Positions 36,731 to 46,445 of a stretch of DNA of 64,000 nucleotides are shown here, piece after piece. The translations under genes were made by a program, and so were the position numbers. The stretch comes from Polaromonas sp. Its GTDB lineage: Bacteria; Pseudomonadota; Gammaproteobacteria; Burkholderiales; Burkholderiaceae_C. Under the pieces are notes generated by a model. The model saw nothing but the letters and a program-made list of their open reading frames with translations, did not search any database and was not told the origin of the DNA. The first letter of the stretch is position 1. Every line of letters begins with the position of its first letter. The stretch covers positions 1 through 64,000 of the forward strand of contig PNML01000006.1 of assembly GCA_013823635.1 (NCBI GenBank). Reading direction: 5' to 3'.

Positions 36731-37762
36731 TCAGGCCGGCGGGTACAGCCCACGGGTGCGGGCCATCAGGCGGGTCAGGCCCAGCAGCGCGTCCATGTGG
36801 GGGGTGGGCAGGCTCAGGTGCTGGCCAATTTCGCGCACCACGCCCAGGATGGCATCCAGCTCAATGGGGCGGCCCGCTTCCACGTCTTGCAGCATGGAGG
36901 TCTTGAACGAGCCCAGGCTGCGGGTGATGGCGTGGCGGTCTTCGGGTTGCTGGTCAATGCCGCAGCCGATGCGTTGGCCAATGGCCTGGGCTTCCCGCAT
37001 CACGGCGCTGCAATGGGCGCGCACCAGCGGGTCGTCCAGAATCTGGTCGCACGGCGCGCCAGTGAGGGCAGACACCGGGTTCATGGTCATGTTGCCCCAC
37101 AGCTTGAACCAGATGTCGTGCTGGATGCGCTCGGCCTGCTTAACCCCAAAACCGGCCTGCTCCAGCAGGGTGGCGATGGCCTGCACTCTGGGGGTGATAC
37201 TCCCTGACGGCTCGCCAATGATGAGCTGGTTGTTTTTGATGCGCACCACCTGCCCCGGCTGAGGCGACACCGCGCTGACGTGCACCACGCAGCCCAGCAC
37301 ATGGGCCGTGGGCAGGGCAGCGGCGGTGAGGCCACCGGGGTCCACCGCCTGCAGTTGCAAGCCTGCGCATTCACCGCCCAGGCCGTCAAAAAACCACCAG
37401 GGCACGCCGTTCATGGCCACCAGCACCACCGTGTGGGCGGCCAGCAGGGGCTTGATCTGCTGCGCCACGCTGGGCATGGCGGGGCCTTTGACCGAAACGA
37501 TCACCAGGTCTTGCGGGCCCAGTGCGGCGGCATTGTCGCTGGCGCGCAGTGGCACTGCGTGGGTGGTGCCTTCGCCGTCGGTCCATTGCAGACCGTTGCG
37601 TTGCAGGGTCGCCAGGGTCTGGCCCCGGGCCAGTGCGCTGAGGGTGATGAGCCCTGCGGGCAAGCGCGAGCCCAGCCAGGCCGCAAACACGCCCCCAATG
37701 GCCCCCACGCCGACGATGGCGACTCGGCGAATGGGTGGGAAATGGGGGGCGACTGGGGTCAT
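36731..37762 (-). CDS. Ketopantoate reductase-family (2-dehydropantoate 2-reductase) protein
   Basis: [23 protein letters not shown] Rossmann; [19 protein letters not shown]. Confidence 0.85.
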
Positions 37763-39144: not shown

Positions 39145-40071
39145 TCAGAGCCGGGTGGCCACCGATGTGTAGCCGTCGGCGGCCGAAGCCACGGCCTGGG
39201 GGATGTCGCGGCCCGTGACCGGTGTGACCGGGAAGATGGCGTTGATTTGCCCCGTGCCCGATGCCCCAAAGTACGGCGTCACCACCTCGGCCCGGCCGTC
39301 GTATTCGCTCCAGCCCAGGGCACCCACCATCATGGCGGTGTCGTGCATGAAGCCTTCGCCGTGGCCTTTGCTGGCGTACTCGGGCAGCATGCCGCAGAAG
39401 TCTTTCCACTGGCCGGTTTTCCACATCTCGACCACGCGGCCATCCAACTGCTCCAGGAACGGACTCCAGATTTTGAAGGCGTATTCGGGGGCCAAACCGT
39501 TTTGGGCAAACCGGTGGCTCAAACTGCCGCTGGCCAGAAAGGCCACGGTGCCGTCGTAATGCTGTTCAATGGCCTGGCGCATGGCCCAACCCAATCGGAC
39601 GCTATCGTTCAAATAGTGCACGGTGCACATGGCAGACACGGAAATGACCTTGAAGTGCTGGTCGGCGTTCATGTAGCGCAGCGGCACCAGGGTGCCGTAC
39701 TCGGGGTCCAGGCTGGTGGCGTGGTGGGCCAGGGTTTCCACACCATGCTCCACACACACCTTGGCCAGCAGTTGGCCCAGCTCGGGGTTGCCCGGGCACT
39801 CAAACGGCATGTTCGCAATGAAGTGGGGCAGCTCGTTGCTGGTGTAGTTGCCCTTGAAGTGCGGCGCGCAGTTGATGTGGTAGTTGGCGTTCACCAGCCA
39901 GTGGGTGTCGAACACCACCAGGGTGTCCACGCCCAATTCGCGGCAGCGGCGGCTGATTTCGTGGTGACCGTCAATCGCGTCCTGGCGCGTGCCCTTGCGC
40001 GGGCCGTCCAGCTCGCTGAGGTACATGCTGGGCACGTGGGTGATTTTGGCAACGAGGGCGAGTTTTCCCAT
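39145..40071 (-). CDS. hpaD: 3,4-dihydroxyphenylacetate 2,3-dioxygenase
   Basis: MGKLALVAKITHVPSMYLSELDGPRKGTRQDAIDGHHEI; extradiol dioxygenase class III. Confidence 0.92.
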   Translation of the reverse strand: MGKLALVAKITHVPSMYLSELDGPRKGTRQDAIDGHHEISRRCRELGVDTLVVFDTHWLVNANYHINCAPHFKGNYTSNELPHFIANMPFECPGNPELGQLLAKVCVEHGVETLAHHATSLDPEYGTLVPLRYMNADQHFKVISVSAMCTVHYLNDSVRLGWAMRQAIEQHYDGTVAFLASGSLSHRFAQNGLAPEYAFKIWSPFLEQLDGRVVEMWKTGQWKDFCGMLPEYASKGHGEGFMHDTAMMVGALGWSEYDGRAEVVTPYFGASGTGQINAIFPVTPVTGRDIPQAVASAADGYTSVATRL

Positions 40072-40082
40072 GGGGTGTCTCC

Positions 40083-40817
40083 TTATTTTGGGTGTGCTTT
40101 TTTCAACAGATCGGACACTTGTTGAGGTGTGCGGAGTTGGCCGTGTGCATGTATGACGGAGTGGCAGTTTGGGCAAACCGGGACAAGGTCTTTTATGGGG
40201 TCTACCGTGTGCGGACCATCTGTCTGAGATAGGGGATTCAGGTGGTGAACGTGGACGCAGTTACTGAACTCTGGCCCGTAGATTTGTCCCATGTCCAAGC
40301 CGCATGCCACACATGCTTTTCCATGGGCACTCAGACACTCTGCGCGTGCCAAGGCGTTGCGATCGCGAACGATGTTCAACGCGTGCGATGTGGAGCCCTC
40401 CGAAAGAGGAGGCATGTCGCATGGTTCGTCGGACGTGAGGAAGTTGTTTTCAAGCAGGCTCGGTTTTTGAAGAAATTCGACGACTTCCGGGCGCAGTTCC
40501 CATGGGAAGCCTTTCACGAGTCCGCTAGAACCCTGCCGCGCCAATACTTGCCAAGGTTTTGCGAAATCTGTGGTGACTGGGTGAGGCGATGCGCGGACGA
40601 TTGCTTTCAGAACACGTTCGCCAACATTGGCGAAAAGTGCGTTGACTGTCAGGTGATGAATTCCCATCTGCTTTGCAATTGCACCTGCGTTGATCGTGTG
40701 GTTCGGTGCGTGTACGAGAACTTGCAAAATTTCAAGCTGCTGGATTGAAAGTTCTGGCAGCACTGTCGCCAGCGCAGCGTGGAATTGCTCGATGGTCAAT
40801 TGTTGTGGCGTGTTCAT
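40083..40817 (-). CDS. HNH endonuclease (McrA-like HNH C-terminus, wHTH-like N-terminus)
   Basis: CVACGLDMGQIYGPEFSNCVHVHHLNPLSQ...VDPIKDLVPVCPNCHSVIHAHG. Confidence 0.88.
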   Translation of the reverse strand: MNTPQQLTIEQFHAALATVLPELSIQQLEILQVLVHAPNHTINAGAIAKQMGIHHLTVNALFANVGERVLKAIVRASPHPVTTDFAKPWQVLARQGSSGLVKGFPWELRPEVVEFLQKPSLLENNFLTSDEPCDMPPLSEGSTSHALNIVRDRNALARAECLSAHGKACVACGLDMGQIYGPEFSNCVHVHHLNPLSQTDGPHTVDPIKDLVPVCPNCHSVIHAHGQLRTPQQVSDLLKKAHPK

Positions 40818-40834
40818 GGGTCTGTCCCCGTCGT

Positions 40835-41233
40835 TCAAGGGCAAATCAGTTGGATGCCGGGGAAATACGCGCGGTAGCGCGCAGCGTCTCGTGTCAGGAG
40901 CGGCCAGCCCTCGACTTGGGCCTGGGCACCGATGAAAAAATCGGGCAGCACGCCGGTGCGGGTGCCGCCGCGTTGGCGGTAGGTGCGAAATGCCAGACCC
41001 GCCAGGTGTGCACCTGCACGTGAAATGTCTTGCGTGCGAATGCCCAGTGCATCCAAAAAACCATCCAGGTTGCTGGGTTCACCGGGGTGTCCGGCCAGCT
41101 CGGCATAGACCACCATGTTGGTCATCAGGCCAGTGCTTTTCTTCCCCGCGTGCAGTTGCCGAAGCGACCAGGGCATCCACTGCGCATCGGCCTTGTAGAT
41201 GTCCAGCAAGACATTGGTATCGACCAAGATCAT
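40835..41233 (-). CDS. PIN domain toxin (VapC-like)
   Basis: MILVDTNVLLDIYKADAQW...GVLPDFFIGAQAQVEGWPLLTRDAARYRAYFPGIQLICP. Confidence 0.9.
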   Translation of the reverse strand: MILVDTNVLLDIYKADAQWMPWSLRQLHAGKKSTGLMTNMVVYAELAGHPGEPSNLDGFLDALGIRTQDISRAGAHLAGLAFRTYRQRGGTRTGVLPDFFIGAQAQVEGWPLLTRDAARYRAYFPGIQLICP

Positions 41234-41508
41234 GGCTTGTTCCAATCGTCGCCACGGGTGATGGCCATCCACTCGTCGGTACTGGGCCCACCCTTGGCAA
41301 TGCCAATGAACGCCCGAATCGGGTCGTCGGGCGCGAGAAAGGACAGGTCGGGTTCTGCGGGCGGCGGCGCTGGCGCGGCCTGGGCCTCGGCGGCGACCAG
41401 GTATTCAGCCAATGCTTCTTGAACCACTGCCGATTTGCTCAGCTGGTGGGCGTTGCAGTAGCGGATCAGGTCGCGCTCAATCTGGGCGGGCAATCGAACA
41501 GACAGCAT
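41230..41508 (-). CDS. RHH-like antitoxin
   Basis: MLSVRLPAQIERDLIRYCNAHQLSKSAVVQEALAEYL; ATGA overlap with toxin. Confidence 0.85.
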   Translation of the reverse strand: MLSVRLPAQIERDLIRYCNAHQLSKSAVVQEALAEYLVAAEAQAAPAPPPAEPDLSFLAPDDPIRAFIGIAKGGPSTDEWMAITRGDDWNKP

Positions 41509-41519
41509 GGGGTTCTCCT

Positions 41520-41570
41520 TGTCATACAAATGGAATTTCAGTGTATGACAAACTTTGTTTTTGTCATACA
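41520..41570 (-). promoter_or_regulatory. Putative antitoxin operator: three TGTCATACA sites
   Basis: TGTCATACA at 41520-41528, TGTATGACA (inverted) at 41542-41550, TGTCATACA at 41562-41570. Confidence 0.6.
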
Positions 41571-41586
41571 AGAAACCCGACTTGTG

Positions 41587-43056
41587 TCACACACCCCAAT
41601 GGGGAATGTGGTGGTGGCCCAGGCTCACGGCCACGTTTTTGGGTTCGCAAAACACCTCGTAGCTCCAGGTGCCGCCTTCGCGCCCGGTGCCGCTGGCCTT
41701 GGTGCCGCCAAAGGGCTGGCGCAGGTCGCGCACGTTCTGGCTGTTGACAAAGCACATACCCGCCTCGACGGCGGCGGCCACGCGGTGGGCTTTGCCGAGG
41801 TTCTCGGTCCACACGTAGCTGGACAGGCCGTAGGCAATGTCGTTGGCCAGTTCAATGGCGTGGGCTTCGTCCTTGAATGGAATCAGGCAGGCCACGGGGC
41901 CAAAAATTTCTTCCTGGGCAATGCGCATGCGGTTGTCCACGTCGGCAAACACGGTGGGCCAGACAAAGTTGCCTTTTTGCAGGTCGCCTGCCAGTTCGGG
42001 GGCGTAGCTGGGCCGGTCAATGCCGCCGCACAGCAGCGTGGCGCCTTCTTTCGGGCCCAGCGCTATGTAGCTGCGCACCTTGGCCAGGTGGGCCTGGCTG
42101 ATCATGGGGCCGACGATAGTTTGTTCAGCCAGCGGGTCGCCCACGGTGATGCGTTTGGCGCGTTCGGCAAATTTGGCCGCGAAGTCGGCGTAAATGCTTT
42201 GCTGCACCAGGATGCGGCTGCCGGCGGTGCAACGCTCGCCGTTGTTGGAAAAGATCATGAAGATGGCCGCGTCCAGCGCGCGGTCGAGTTCGGCGTCTTC
42301 AAAAATGACGAAGGGGCTTTTGCCGCCCAGCTCCATGCTGAATTTTTTGAGACCCGCCGCCTTCACGATGCGGTTGCCCGTGGCGGTGGAGCCGGTGAAG
42401 CTGATGGCCCGCACATCGGGGTGGGCGCACAGCGGTTCGCCCGCTGGTTGGCCAAAGCCGTGCACCACGTTCAACACGCCTGCGGGCACACCGGCTTCCA
42501 GGGCCAGGCTTCCTAAGCGCGCGGCGGTCATGGGCGACAGCTCGCTCATTTTCAGGACCGCCGTGTTGCCAAAGGCCAGGCAGGGTGCCACTTTCCAAGT
42601 GGCCGTCATGAAGGGCACGTTCCACGGGCTGATGAGCGCGCACACGCCCACGGGGTGGAACAAGGTGTAGTTCAGGTGCGTGGGTGTGGGGTAGGTGTGG
42701 CCGTCCACGCGGGTGCACATTTCGGCAAAGTAGCTGAAGTTGTCAGCCGCACGGGGAATGAGCTGCTTGCCCGTTTGGCTGATGCTTTGGCCGGTGTCTT
42801 TGGTTTCGGTTTGGGCAATCTCGGGCACGTGCTGGGCAATCAGCTCGCCCAGCTTGCGCATGATCTTGGCGCGCTCGGTGGCGGGGCGGCCTGCCCAGGC
42901 CGGAAAGGCGTCTTTGGCGGCCTGCACGGCGGCGTTCACTTCCGCCTCGGTGCCGCTGGCCACTTCGGCCAGCACGTCTTGCGTGGCGGGGTTGACGGTT
43001 TCGAAACAGTCGTTGGACGCAACGTGTTGGCCGTTGATCAGGTGGTTGATGCGCAT
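41587..43056 (-). CDS. hpaE: 5-carboxymethyl-2-hydroxymuconate semialdehyde dehydrogenase
   Basis: ALDH motifs FTGSTATGNRIVKAA, ELGGKSPFVIFEDAELDRA; between hpaG and hpaD. Confidence 0.92.
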   Translation of the reverse strand: MRINHLINGQHVASNDCFETVNPATQDVLAEVASGTEAEVNAAVQAAKDAFPAWAGRPATERAKIMRKLGELIAQHVPEIAQTETKDTGQSISQTGKQLIPRAADNFSYFAEMCTRVDGHTYPTPTHLNYTLFHPVGVCALISPWNVPFMTATWKVAPCLAFGNTAVLKMSELSPMTAARLGSLALEAGVPAGVLNVVHGFGQPAGEPLCAHPDVRAISFTGSTATGNRIVKAAGLKKFSMELGGKSPFVIFEDAELDRALDAAIFMIFSNNGERCTAGSRILVQQSIYADFAAKFAERAKRITVGDPLAEQTIVGPMISQAHLAKVRSYIALGPKEGATLLCGGIDRPSYAPELAGDLQKGNFVWPTVFADVDNRMRIAQEEIFGPVACLIPFKDEAHAIELANDIAYGLSSYVWTENLGKAHRVAAAVEAGMCFVNSQNVRDLRQPFGGTKASGTGREGGTWSYEVFCEPKNVAVSLGHHHIPHWGV

Positions 43057-43058
43057 GG

Positions 43059-43122
43059 TTTTATCAATTCAATAGCTGGAAAATGTTGATGGACAAGCGC
43101 TGTAGCACTTAAACACTAAAAA
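43059..43122 (-). repeat. Dispersed repeat family member e
   Basis: Minus strand: AAGTGCTACAGCGCTTGTCCATCAACATTTTCCAGCTATTGAATTGAT. Confidence 0.6.
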
Positions 43123-44581
43123 TTGAGTCGCTGACGAGGGTATTGACCAGTCGGCCAATGCCGTCGATCTCGGTCACCACTTCGTCGCCCGCGTTCACGT
43201 TCACCACGCCGTCGGGCGTGCCGGTCAGGATCACGTCGCCGGGTTGCAGCGTCATGAAGCCGCTGAGGTAGGCGATGAGGGCGGGGATGTCCGAAATCAG
43301 GTCAGCCGTGTTGCCTTGCTGGGTCACCACACCGTTGACCTGGGTGCGCAGCGCTAGGTGGTGCGGGTTGGGCACGGCCGAGGCAGGCACAAACCAGGGG
43401 CCGAGCACGGTGCAGCCGTCGCGGTTTTTGACGCGCAGGTTGGGGCGGTAGTAGTTTTCCAGGTAGTCGCGGATGGCGTAGTCGTTGGCCACGGTGTAGC
43501 CCGCCACGTACTGCATGGCCTCTTCGGGCCGCACGCTTTTGGCGGTGCGCCCAATGACCACGGCCAGCTCGCACTCGTAGTGCATGAAGGCCACGCCGTC
43601 GGGGCGGCGGGTCTGGCCCCGGTGGCCGATGACGGCGCTGGCGCTTTTCAAAAAAGCCAGGGGCTCGTCTTGCGTGGTGACGGTCAGTTCTTTGGACAAC
43701 TCTTTGACATGGTCGGCGTAGTTCAGGCCCAGCGCAATGACGGTGCCCACCTCGAACGGGGGCAGCCACACCACCTCCGCCTCGGCCAGCACACGGCCAT
43801 CGGCCAGTTGCACGCCGTGGGGGTGTTCGGTGGCGGTGTGGATGGCACCGCCGTAGGCCACCCGGGCTGTCTTGGCCACGCTGGCCGCATGGATGGGTTG
43901 GGCGCGGTTGCTTTCAGCGGCGGGCGCAGCTTCGGCCACCAGCGTGTGTTCCAACTGGCCTATGCCTTCAATGGTGATGCGCACCCGCTGCCCGGCGCGG
44001 GCACGCGGCGCACCGGCGGCCACGCCCACAGCCAGCACATCGCCGGGGTGCAGGGTCATGAACTCGGTCACGTCCGCCAGCAGTTGCGCCACGGGGCGGA
44101 TGAGCCCTGCCGTGCTGCTGCGGTGGACCACCTCACCATCCAACGCCACGGTGATGGCCAGGTTGTCCGGGTCAATGGTGTCATTCGCCACCACCTCGCC
44201 CATCGGACAAAACCCGTCGCGGCACTTGAAGCGCATGGATGGCCGGTACACGGCGGTGTGCGGCACGCTGATGTCGTTCATCACCACATAGCCCGCCACA
44301 AAGCTCAGGGCATTGGCCGCGCTGACGCGGCAGGCGGTGCGGCCAATGACCAGGCCCAGCGTGGCCCCCATTTCCAGCTCGGGCGCATCGGCTGGCACCA
44401 CCACGGCGTCCCCAGTTTGGGCCCAGGTGTTGCGGGGCTTGATGTACAGGATGGGCGCTTTGGGCGGGGCCTTGTAGGGCGCGGCGTGCACCTGTTCGCC
44501 CAAGGCGGCCAGGGCGTCGCGGTGGTTGAGCAGGGTGCCGTACACCGTGCCACGTGGCGGAGTGTGGGGGAGGGTATGCAT
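43109..44581 (-). CDS. hpaG: Bifunctional (two-domain) OPET decarboxylase/HHDD isomerase, FAH family
   Basis: Two tandem fumarylacetoacetate-hydrolase-like domains in 490 aa. Confidence 0.9.
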   Translation of the reverse strand: MHTLPHTPPRGTVYGTLLNHRDALAALGEQVHAAPYKAPPKAPILYIKPRNTWAQTGDAVVVPADAPELEMGATLGLVIGRTACRVSAANALSFVAGYVVMNDISVPHTAVYRPSMRFKCRDGFCPMGEVVANDTIDPDNLAITVALDGEVVHRSSTAGLIRPVAQLLADVTEFMTLHPGDVLAVGVAAGAPRARAGQRVRITIEGIGQLEHTLVAEAAPAAESNRAQPIHAASVAKTARVAYGGAIHTATEHPHGVQLADGRVLAEAEVVWLPPFEVGTVIALGLNYADHVKELSKELTVTTQDEPLAFLKSASAVIGHRGQTRRPDGVAFMHYECELAVVIGRTAKSVRPEEAMQYVAGYTVANDYAIRDYLENYYRPNLRVKNRDGCTVLGPWFVPASAVPNPHHLALRTQVNGVVTQQGNTADLISDIPALIAYLSGFMTLQPGDVILTGTPDGVVNVNAGDEVVTEIDGIGRLVNTLVSDSIFSV

Positions 44582-45378: not shown

Positions 45379-45479
45379 ACACTTTGTTTCGAACACTTGA
45401 TGGGTTGTAAGAGATGTGCTCACCGCACAAACAACTGCACGAGCATGTTCGACAGCAGCACACACAACGGAGACATTTC

Positions 45480-46445
45480 ATGCAACGCAGACACCTCATT
45501 GCCGCCTGCTTGGCGGTGGCCGTACCGCTGGGCGCATCCGCCCAAGCGGCCTTTCCCAGCAAGCCCATCAGCATCGTGGTGCCCGCCACGCCGGGTGGGG
45601 CCATCGACCTGACCGCGCGGCTGATTGGGGCCAAGGTGGGTGCCGCGTTCAACCAGGCGGTGTCCGTCGAAAACCTGGGCGGTGCCGGTGGCACCCTGGG
45701 CACCGACAAGGTGGCCAAGGCCGCGCCCGATGGTCACGCCATGGTGTTGGTGGCCAGCAGCCACGCCATCAACCCCAGTCTGTACAAAAAGCTGCCGTTT
45801 GACACGATCAAGAGCTTTGAGCCCGTGATGCACACGCACACCGTGCCACTCGTTTTGGTGGTCAGCAACGGCGTGCCCGCACGCACCCTGCCAGAGTTGA
45901 TTGCCTACCTCAAAGCCAACCCAGGCAAGCACAGCTTTGCTTCCAGTGGCAAGGGCGGCGCACCGCACATGTCGGGCGAACTGTTCAAGGCCATGGCTGG
46001 TGTGGACCTGATCCATGTGCCCTACAAGGGCAGCACCGCCGCGCACACCGACCTGATTGCAGGCCGCGTTGACTTGATGTTTGACACCGTGGCTGCCATT
46101 TCAGGGCAAGTCAAAGGTGGCAATGTGCGCGCTTTGGCCGTGACCACGGCAACGCGCTCAGGCGTTTTTCCCGATTTGCCCACCATGGCAGAGGCGGGCT
46201 TGAAAGGTTACGAAACCAGCACCTGGGGTGGCTTGTTGGCCCCAGCGGGCACGCCGAAAGAAGTGGTGGCCAAGCTCAACGCCGAAGCCAACAAGGCGCT
46301 GGCCGCCGCAGACACGCGCGAAAAATTGGCCGCAGCAGGCATAGAGCCCGCTGGTGGCACGCCCGCGCAATTTGCCGCTTTTATCCAGAGCGAAATGGCA
46401 CGCTGGGCCAAGGTCGCCAAAGCCGCGGGTCTTGAGCCCGAGTAA
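45480..46445 (+). CDS. Tripartite tricarboxylate transporter (Bug) substrate-binding protein
   Basis: FPSKPISIVVPATPGGAIDLTARLIGAKVG...ENLGGAGGTLGTDKVAKAAPDGH. Confidence 0.92.
   Translation: MQRRHLIAACLAVAVPLGASAQAAFPSKPISIVVPATPGGAIDLTARLIGAKVGAAFNQAVSVENLGGAGGTLGTDKVAKAAPDGHAMVLVASSHAINPSLYKKLPFDTIKSFEPVMHTHTVPLVLVVSNGVPARTLPELIAYLKANPGKHSFASSGKGGAPHMSGELFKAMAGVDLIHVPYKGSTAAHTDLIAGRVDLMFDTVAAISGQVKGGNVRALAVTTATRSGVFPDLPTMAEAGLKGYETSTWGGLLAPAGTPKEVVAKLNAEANKALAAADTREKLAAAGIEPAGGTPAQFAAFIQSEMARWAKVAKAAGLEPE

Follow-up and report, generated by a model that had tools for sequence, protein, structure and literature searches.

A VapBC-type toxin-antitoxin module and a McrA-like HNH nuclease in the hpaE-hpaD junction of a Polaromonas hpa operon

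The window analyzed here is a stretch of 64,000 nucleotides from Polaromonas sp. (GenBank assembly GCA_013823635.1, contig PNML01000006.1, positions 1 to 64,000), which belongs to contig 6 of a 3.4-Mb draft genome (G000) of 231 contigs and 87% completeness. The minus strand carries, in this order, hpaG, hpaE, an RHH antitoxin, a PIN toxin, an HNH gene, hpaD, an hpaF-like gene, hpaH, an ApbA/PanE-like gene and hpaI. The hpaH and hpaI genes match NCBIfam models TIGR02312 and TIGR02311, both above cut-off. The features at and around the hpaE-hpaD junction are as follows.

43109-44581, minus strand: hpaG (NCBIfam TIGR02303/02305, above cut-off)
41587-43056, minus strand: hpaE, 5-carboxymethyl-2-hydroxymuconate semialdehyde dehydrogenase, the upstream flank (NCBIfam TIGR02299, E 2.1e-235, above cut-off)
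41585-41593, minus strand: degenerate operator half-site TGTGTGACA across the hpaE stop codon (sequence, upstream-region alignment)
41542-41570, minus strand: inverted repeat TGTATGACAAA-N7-TTTGTCATACA, candidate autoregulatory operator (sequence; half-sites recur upstream of homologues)
41520-41528, minus strand: further candidate half-site TGTATGACA, running into the vapB ribosome-binding site AAGGAG (sequence; conserved in hpa-located homologues)
41230-41508, minus strand: vapB-like RHH antitoxin, 92 aa, P0001 (translation, weak RHH/CopG matches, homologues)
40835-41233, minus strand: vapC-like PIN toxin, 132 aa, P0002 (translation, PF01850, homologue sequences)
40083-40817, minus strand: winged-helix (wH)-HNH nuclease, 244 aa, P0003 (translation, PF01844, 6ghc, alignment of 15 homologues, AlphaFold/Foldseek, GC3)
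39145-40071, minus strand: hpaD, 3,4-dihydroxyphenylacetate 2,3-dioxygenase, the downstream flank (NCBIfam TIGR02298, E 3.2e-137, above cut-off)

The three genes between hpaE and hpaD are all apparently intact. The vapB and vapC genes overlap by 4 bp, vapC is separated from the HNH gene by 17 bp, and the HNH gene from hpaD by 11 bp; hpaD has its own ribosome-binding site (AGGAGA). Gene positions, strand and tight packing are in agreement with the initial annotation, except that the antitoxin start, placed there at about 41570, is corrected to the ATG at 41508, just 3' of AAGGAG. A longer antitoxin with a TTG start would enclose the inverted repeat at 41542-41570 within the gene; 41509-41593 is the promoter/operator region of the antitoxin. 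The HNH gene most likely starts at ATG 40817. No tRNA integration site lies within the window, no RNA element was matched by Rfam at the insertion site, and terminator-like sites were not above the level of shuffled sequence. Further along the operon, hpaH and hpaI flank a ketopantoate-reductase-like gene (36731-37762, minus strand); elsewhere in the window, a tripartite-tricarboxylate-type receptor-like gene (45414-46445, plus strand) lies beyond the MarR-type gene adjoining hpaG.

The first two genes had been described as an RHH antitoxin and PIN toxin pair, and this identification stands. The toxin matches Pfam PF01850 above cut-off (E 2.6e-6), and its translation contains the acidic residues D5, E45, D98 and D116, which are kept in the homologues save that of G449 (D98A). 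The antitoxin matches RHH/CopG families weakly (best E 0.0023-0.015). Its N-terminal RHH pattern is kept among homologues, and the full-length ones are followed by a PIN toxin in every case checked. As in VapBC modules, a small antitoxin with a DNA-binding domain (92 aa; the RHH match is weak) is positioned directly upstream of the toxin, with a 4-bp overlap. The PIN domain is VapC-like by fold. We name the toxin VapC-like because it scores 20.4 bits against the NCBIfam VapC equivalog NF047959, below the cut-off of 80, although public records call homologues of ~54% identity VapC.

That these genes interrupt the hpa operon, as initially proposed, is confirmed by relatives with adjacent hpaE and hpaD, which had been suggested as a check and were found among the congeners, and by the recurrence of the toxin-antitoxin (TA) module at this junction in other genera. 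In congeners G005 and G006, the hpaE-hpaD gap measures 34-38 bp, and in G007 it is a palindromic filler of ~210 bp; all three are devoid of both TA and HNH genes. Given these empty sites, the islet is an insertion. The filler of G007 (L011) is repeat-like and palindromic, AAAACGCACC...GGTGCGTT, and fillers of similar size occur in other genera.

Among the hpaE-bearing genomes of 401 family genomes plus G006, 98 junctions were readable. The gap is below 200 bp in 56 of them, 200-600 bp in 17 and at least 600 bp in 25. The large inserts, whose translations were read by eye, comprise a tripartite-tricarboxylate-type receptor gene (18), nitrilase-like genes (2), fillers (2) and TA modules (3). Junctions with the receptor gene (18/98 readable junctions, identified by eye) include L211, L226, L228, L232 and L236. 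The hpaE-hpaD junction is a generally permissive place. A stabilizing effect on the operon, as initially suggested, would be conjectural for the TA module, since many relatives retain hpa genes without it.

The TA module shows a striking preference for this place. Across 401 genomes of the family and 40 of genus g113 (the genus of G414), the window included, 13 of 15 full-length antitoxin homologues are situated at the hpaE-hpaD junction, in four genera. The search of the 401 family genomes returned full-length homologues in G095, G410, G414, G067 and G020; antitoxins at the same junction are 70-76% identical to that of the window, and the PIN homologues of G095, G414 and G067, all from other genera, likewise lie between hpaE and hpaD. 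The two exceptions are G410, in which hpaE found no match, and G020, where a receptor gene occupies the hpa junction. The module is commonest in g113, where the antitoxin is present in ten of 40 genomes, always between hpaE and hpaD, and absent in 30. There, hpaE is present in 35/40 genomes; among the empty junctions sampled, 14 measure just 2 bp, and occupied junctions span 662-774 bp. Matches in 230 genomes of the order were partial and more distant only, and a plasmid search gave no antitoxin match. In a fifth genus (G115), a remnant of the antitoxin C-terminus directly follows the hpaE stop (L319:1-350); after this remnant, L319 has an apparent LigA-like start in place of hpaD. A literature search, incomplete in its coverage, returned no report of a TA module within an hpa operon.

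How the module came to occupy the junction was addressed with trees of the flanks and the toxin. In the hpaD tree, each of four occupied operons has empty ones as its neighbours on all sides, and the well supported branches require at least four changes of state. In the PIN tree, the toxin of the window groups with G410, G095 and G414, and that of G067 with G020. Judged by this tree, two VapC lineages occupy the hpaE-hpaD site, a pattern compatible both with an attractive site and with exchange. Near the junction, the similarity of the hpaE/hpaD flanks of the window to TA-bearing operons is not above that to TA-free ones, and no recombination tract could be marked out in these flanks. For g113, the hpaE tree groups the occupied operons, together with empty ones, in a single unresolved clade, and one gain plus several losses may be compatible with this tree. 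The data hardly allow a full separation of independent gain from exchange between operons or from gain followed by losses. In G449 (L341), the VapC at the hpa junction carries D98A at the catalytic position (LPAFF instead of LPDFF), which suggests a decayed toxin next to an intact antitoxin.

Alleles were compared among VapBC loci of the G414 genus (L336, L196, L339, L343, L340 and L342; vapB from position 1, vapC from ~271). Two types are found in g113. In type 1, the antitoxin tail PSTDEWMAITRGEDWNKP, or one near it, is paired with the toxin start MILVDTNVLLD(I/V)YKADP; in type 2, the tail MST(D/E)ELMRMTRGDDWNQP is paired with MILVDTNVFVDVIH. Between G453 (type 1) and G414 (type 2), identity is ~90% in both hpa flanks (hpaE and hpaD) and at the two outer ends of the module (early vapB and late vapC), and it drops to 48-78% over approximately positions 200-540, from late vapB to mid vapC. 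In the early block, G414 is closer to G095 from another genus (81-83%) than to its congener (62-77%). This relation is reversed in early vapB, with 56-70% to G095 and 89-95% to the congener. The vapB-vapC alleles are mosaics. The divergent block is contiguous and takes in the antitoxin tail plus a large part of the toxin, as would be expected for an exchange of matched specificity in a single step.

These data also bear on the possibility that the TA module is ancestral at hpaE-hpaD and was lost many times, in which case neither site preference nor horizontal exchange would be needed. The single unresolved clade of occupied g113 operons is in line with such a history, as is the D98A toxin of G449, and the G115 remnant shows that decay happens. 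However, the four separate changes forced on the hpaD tree, with occupied operons nested among empty ones, argue against it, as do the mosaic block that is closer across genera than within a genus and the two toxin lineages at the site. We consider an ancestral module unlikely.

The region upstream of the antitoxin has a recurrent organization. The hpa-located antitoxins are preceded by half-sites of the TGTATGACA type, three or four in number and facing either way. At the position of the degenerate half-site of the window, nearly all other occupied sites have TGTATGACA or CGTATGACA. This first half-site includes the hpaE stop codon in nearly all occupied sites (GTA TGA CA; GTG TGA CA in the window), and G067 differs. 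Homology to the module of G410, which is not located in hpa, begins at this stop-codon half-site, so the module apparently brought the stop codon of hpaE along. A promoter-like sequence, ATGACA-16-TACACT (41567-41540), overlaps the inverted repeat (the promoter scan found 2 where 1.1 were expected, which alone is not significant). From established TA biology, the module would be autoregulated via the half-sites.

The half-site across the hpaE stop, the shared orientation of module and operon, and the internal promoter-like sequence could also be taken to mean that the module was recruited as a regulator of hpa, with VapB bound near the hpaE stop controlling hpaD and the genes beyond it, either as a roadblock or as the switch of an internal promoter. 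However, most hpa operons do without the TA module, its presence is variable within one genus, and the same site takes unrelated cargo, which makes a regulatory recruitment improbable.

The third gene had been called a McrA-like HNH nuclease, and the description holds. It matches Pfam PF01844 above cut-off (E 3.1e-5), and the closest solved protein is EcoKMcrA (6ghc), by the HNH part only (E 0.0066 with the single sequence, 2.4e-6 with a profile). The C-terminal residues of a McrA-type HNH are C169, C172, H191, H192, C215, N217, C218, H219 and H223, and the CxxC, HH, CPNCH and H columns are invariant across 15 aligned homologues, which share the N-terminal domain and the HNH. The N-terminal winged helix covers approximately residues 9-116. 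In the AlphaFold model (mean pLDDT 82), the N-terminal domain is helical and winged-helix-like, and Foldseek returned ArsR/MarR winged helices at E 0.18 and above (none below 0.001; prob up to 0.97). A winged-helix fold is thus predicted with moderate confidence. No similarity was found to the modified-cytosine-reading N-terminal domain of EcoKMcrA, the match being limited to profile positions 138-229 (HNH), and the profile search of the PDB gave no match to DpnI. The PADLOC type IV models match the HNH part weakly. The HNH gene is compositionally foreign: its GC3 is 0.555, whereas the hpa genes have 0.834 and the TA genes 0.70-0.73.

At hpaE-hpaD, the HNH gene is present in the window genome only; the other 12 occupied sites lack it. 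Its full-length relatives are few and patchy, the best (L082) being 49% identical, and they are found in other contexts, without a TA of the window type and not at hpa loci. L082 adjoins a MmeI-like type IIG enzyme and L151 an Mrr-like gene. In L094 (5893-8516), a wH-HNH gene immediately precedes that of a type II methyltransferase (PADLOC E 1.6e-267); on this account, part of the family could consist of conventional type II partners, not type IV enzymes. L145 (2581-6285) encodes a 1234-aa protein in which a sacsin/TmtA-like ATPase is joined to a wH-like stretch plus an HNH of the window family, possibly a defence fusion. These settings point to a role in restriction. An EVE/PUA domain suggested by eye and length in the relative L121 found no Pfam match and no PDB match outside the HNH.

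Phage and plasmid origins of the gene were considered and rejected: phage records hold no close HNH (three distant matches), and only HNH parts less than 60% identical occur on plasmids. IMG/VR holds 31 HNH-domain relatives (29-48% identity), most of which match the HNH part alone. The neighbours of the HNH gene are vapC and hpaD, and no methyltransferase is next door, as is the case for stand-alone wH-HNH enzymes. In its own genome, 87% complete, PF02384 (N6_Mtase) gave no match in a search with working controls. A cognate methyltransferase was also not found there, one search having been run without a control, and one could be missing from the draft. A modification-dependent, self-sparing nuclease is our best guess, because of the restriction context, the fit to the published wH-HNH class and the lack of an N6_Mtase match. 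In all likelihood, the HNH gene encodes a stand-alone type IV-like enzyme and is a passenger in the permissive junction.

The initial annotation had viewed the three genes as a candidate minimal defence/addiction cassette. In such a cassette, toxin, antitoxin and modification-dependent nuclease would cooperate and would have been acquired as a unit. The common strand, the tight spacing and a plausible co-transcription are compatible with this view, and behind L082, the nearest relative of the HNH at 49%, there is likewise a TA-like pair, recognized by eye and of another type. The cassette was not upheld, however: all 12 other occupied sites (12/13) have the TA module without HNH, the HNH kin lack a TA of the window type, and the composition of the genes differs. 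Co-occurrence of the three genes elsewhere, whose absence had been named beforehand as a refuting result, was not found. A single cassette is very improbable; the junction holds two layers, a TA module and an unrelated nuclease, which are neighbours and not one system. The free-standing HNH adjoining the insertion point might also recall a homing-type nuclease that drives the insertion of the islet, but its relatives lie away from hpa loci and the TA module reaches the site without it, so that we give homing hardly any credence.

Taken together, two unrelated accessory units in a permissive hpa junction, with the TA module arriving through homologous recombination and the HNH gene as a later type IV-like insertion, are the probable explanation of this locus. 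The VapBC-type module, with its own operator-promoter, would sit in line with the hpa operon and leave it unbroken. The RHH antitoxin would bind the TGTATGACA half-sites, repress the module and neutralize the PIN ribonuclease. The module would spread among the hpa operons of the family and repeatedly reach hpaE-hpaD, most likely by homologous recombination via the conserved hpaE/hpaD flanks rather than by a transposase, none of which was seen. Recombination within the locus would also swap matched blocks of antitoxin tail and toxin body, in keeping with the mosaic alleles. The HNH gene, found in the window genome only, would be a later insertion; its winged helix is predicted to read a DNA modification and its HNH domain to cut incoming modified DNA in a type IV-like manner. 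Both units are assumed to be transcribed by read-through, starting at the TA or the hpa promoter.

A more specific scenario can be put forward tentatively, with somewhat more doubt than belief: a VapBC lineage at home in hpaE-hpaD might invade the empty junctions of other genera via flanking homology, supply the hpaE stop codon through its operator and renew its pairing by swapping blocks across genera. If true, block swapping would be a route for chromosomal TA modules both to spread and to change specificity. What remains is a TA module strikingly preferring one operon junction and a passenger nuclease in one genome. Since occupied, empty, decayed and mosaic alleles of a single junction are available across several genera, one can trace directly in the sequence where insertions end, which tracts have recombined and how specificity switches, and the junction could serve as a model for TA mobility. 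The main contribution of the nuclease is a new location for a known class of modification-dependent enzymes.

This class comprises wH-HNH endonucleases of 224-283 aa (PMC11037411). More than 1,000 wH fusion proteins were inspected in that work, 87% of them without a methyltransferase nearby; several wH-fusion enzymes were toxic in Dam+ E. coli, and a DpnI-like 6mA/GATC pocket motif was present in ~10% of wH fusions (PMC11037411). The HNH protein of the window is likened to this class by architecture and size, being likewise a winged helix followed by HNH, 244 aa long and encoded by a stand-alone gene. The same study describes a class of 375-496 aa with one more domain at the N-terminus, an arrangement shared by the 394-aa relative L121. 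With the type IV enzyme EcoKMcrA (6ghc), the protein has the CxxC...HH...CPNCH of the HNH domain in common, and the match covers this domain only.

The TA module shares gene order, the 4-bp overlap, the PIN acidic residues and inverted repeats at the promoter with VapBC type II modules. Homologous PIN toxins of the family are often paired with AbrB/SpoVT-type antitoxins, whereas the subfamily of the window has an RHH antitoxin and resides nearly exclusively at a single chromosomal junction. Insertions of TA modules between the genes of an operon have been described before, namely mazEF in relA-mazG, yafNO in dinB-yafP and ccd in folA-apaH, and how chromosomal TA modules move between hosts and choose integration sites has been described as unsolved (PMC7167474). 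As in those three cases, the module lies between operon genes that are undisturbed in other strains, the site accepts other elements and the location is conserved. In comparison, the host operon here is catabolic and the operator overlaps the upstream stop codon, and the occupied/empty polymorphism together with the mosaic alleles is visible across genera at hpaE-hpaD.
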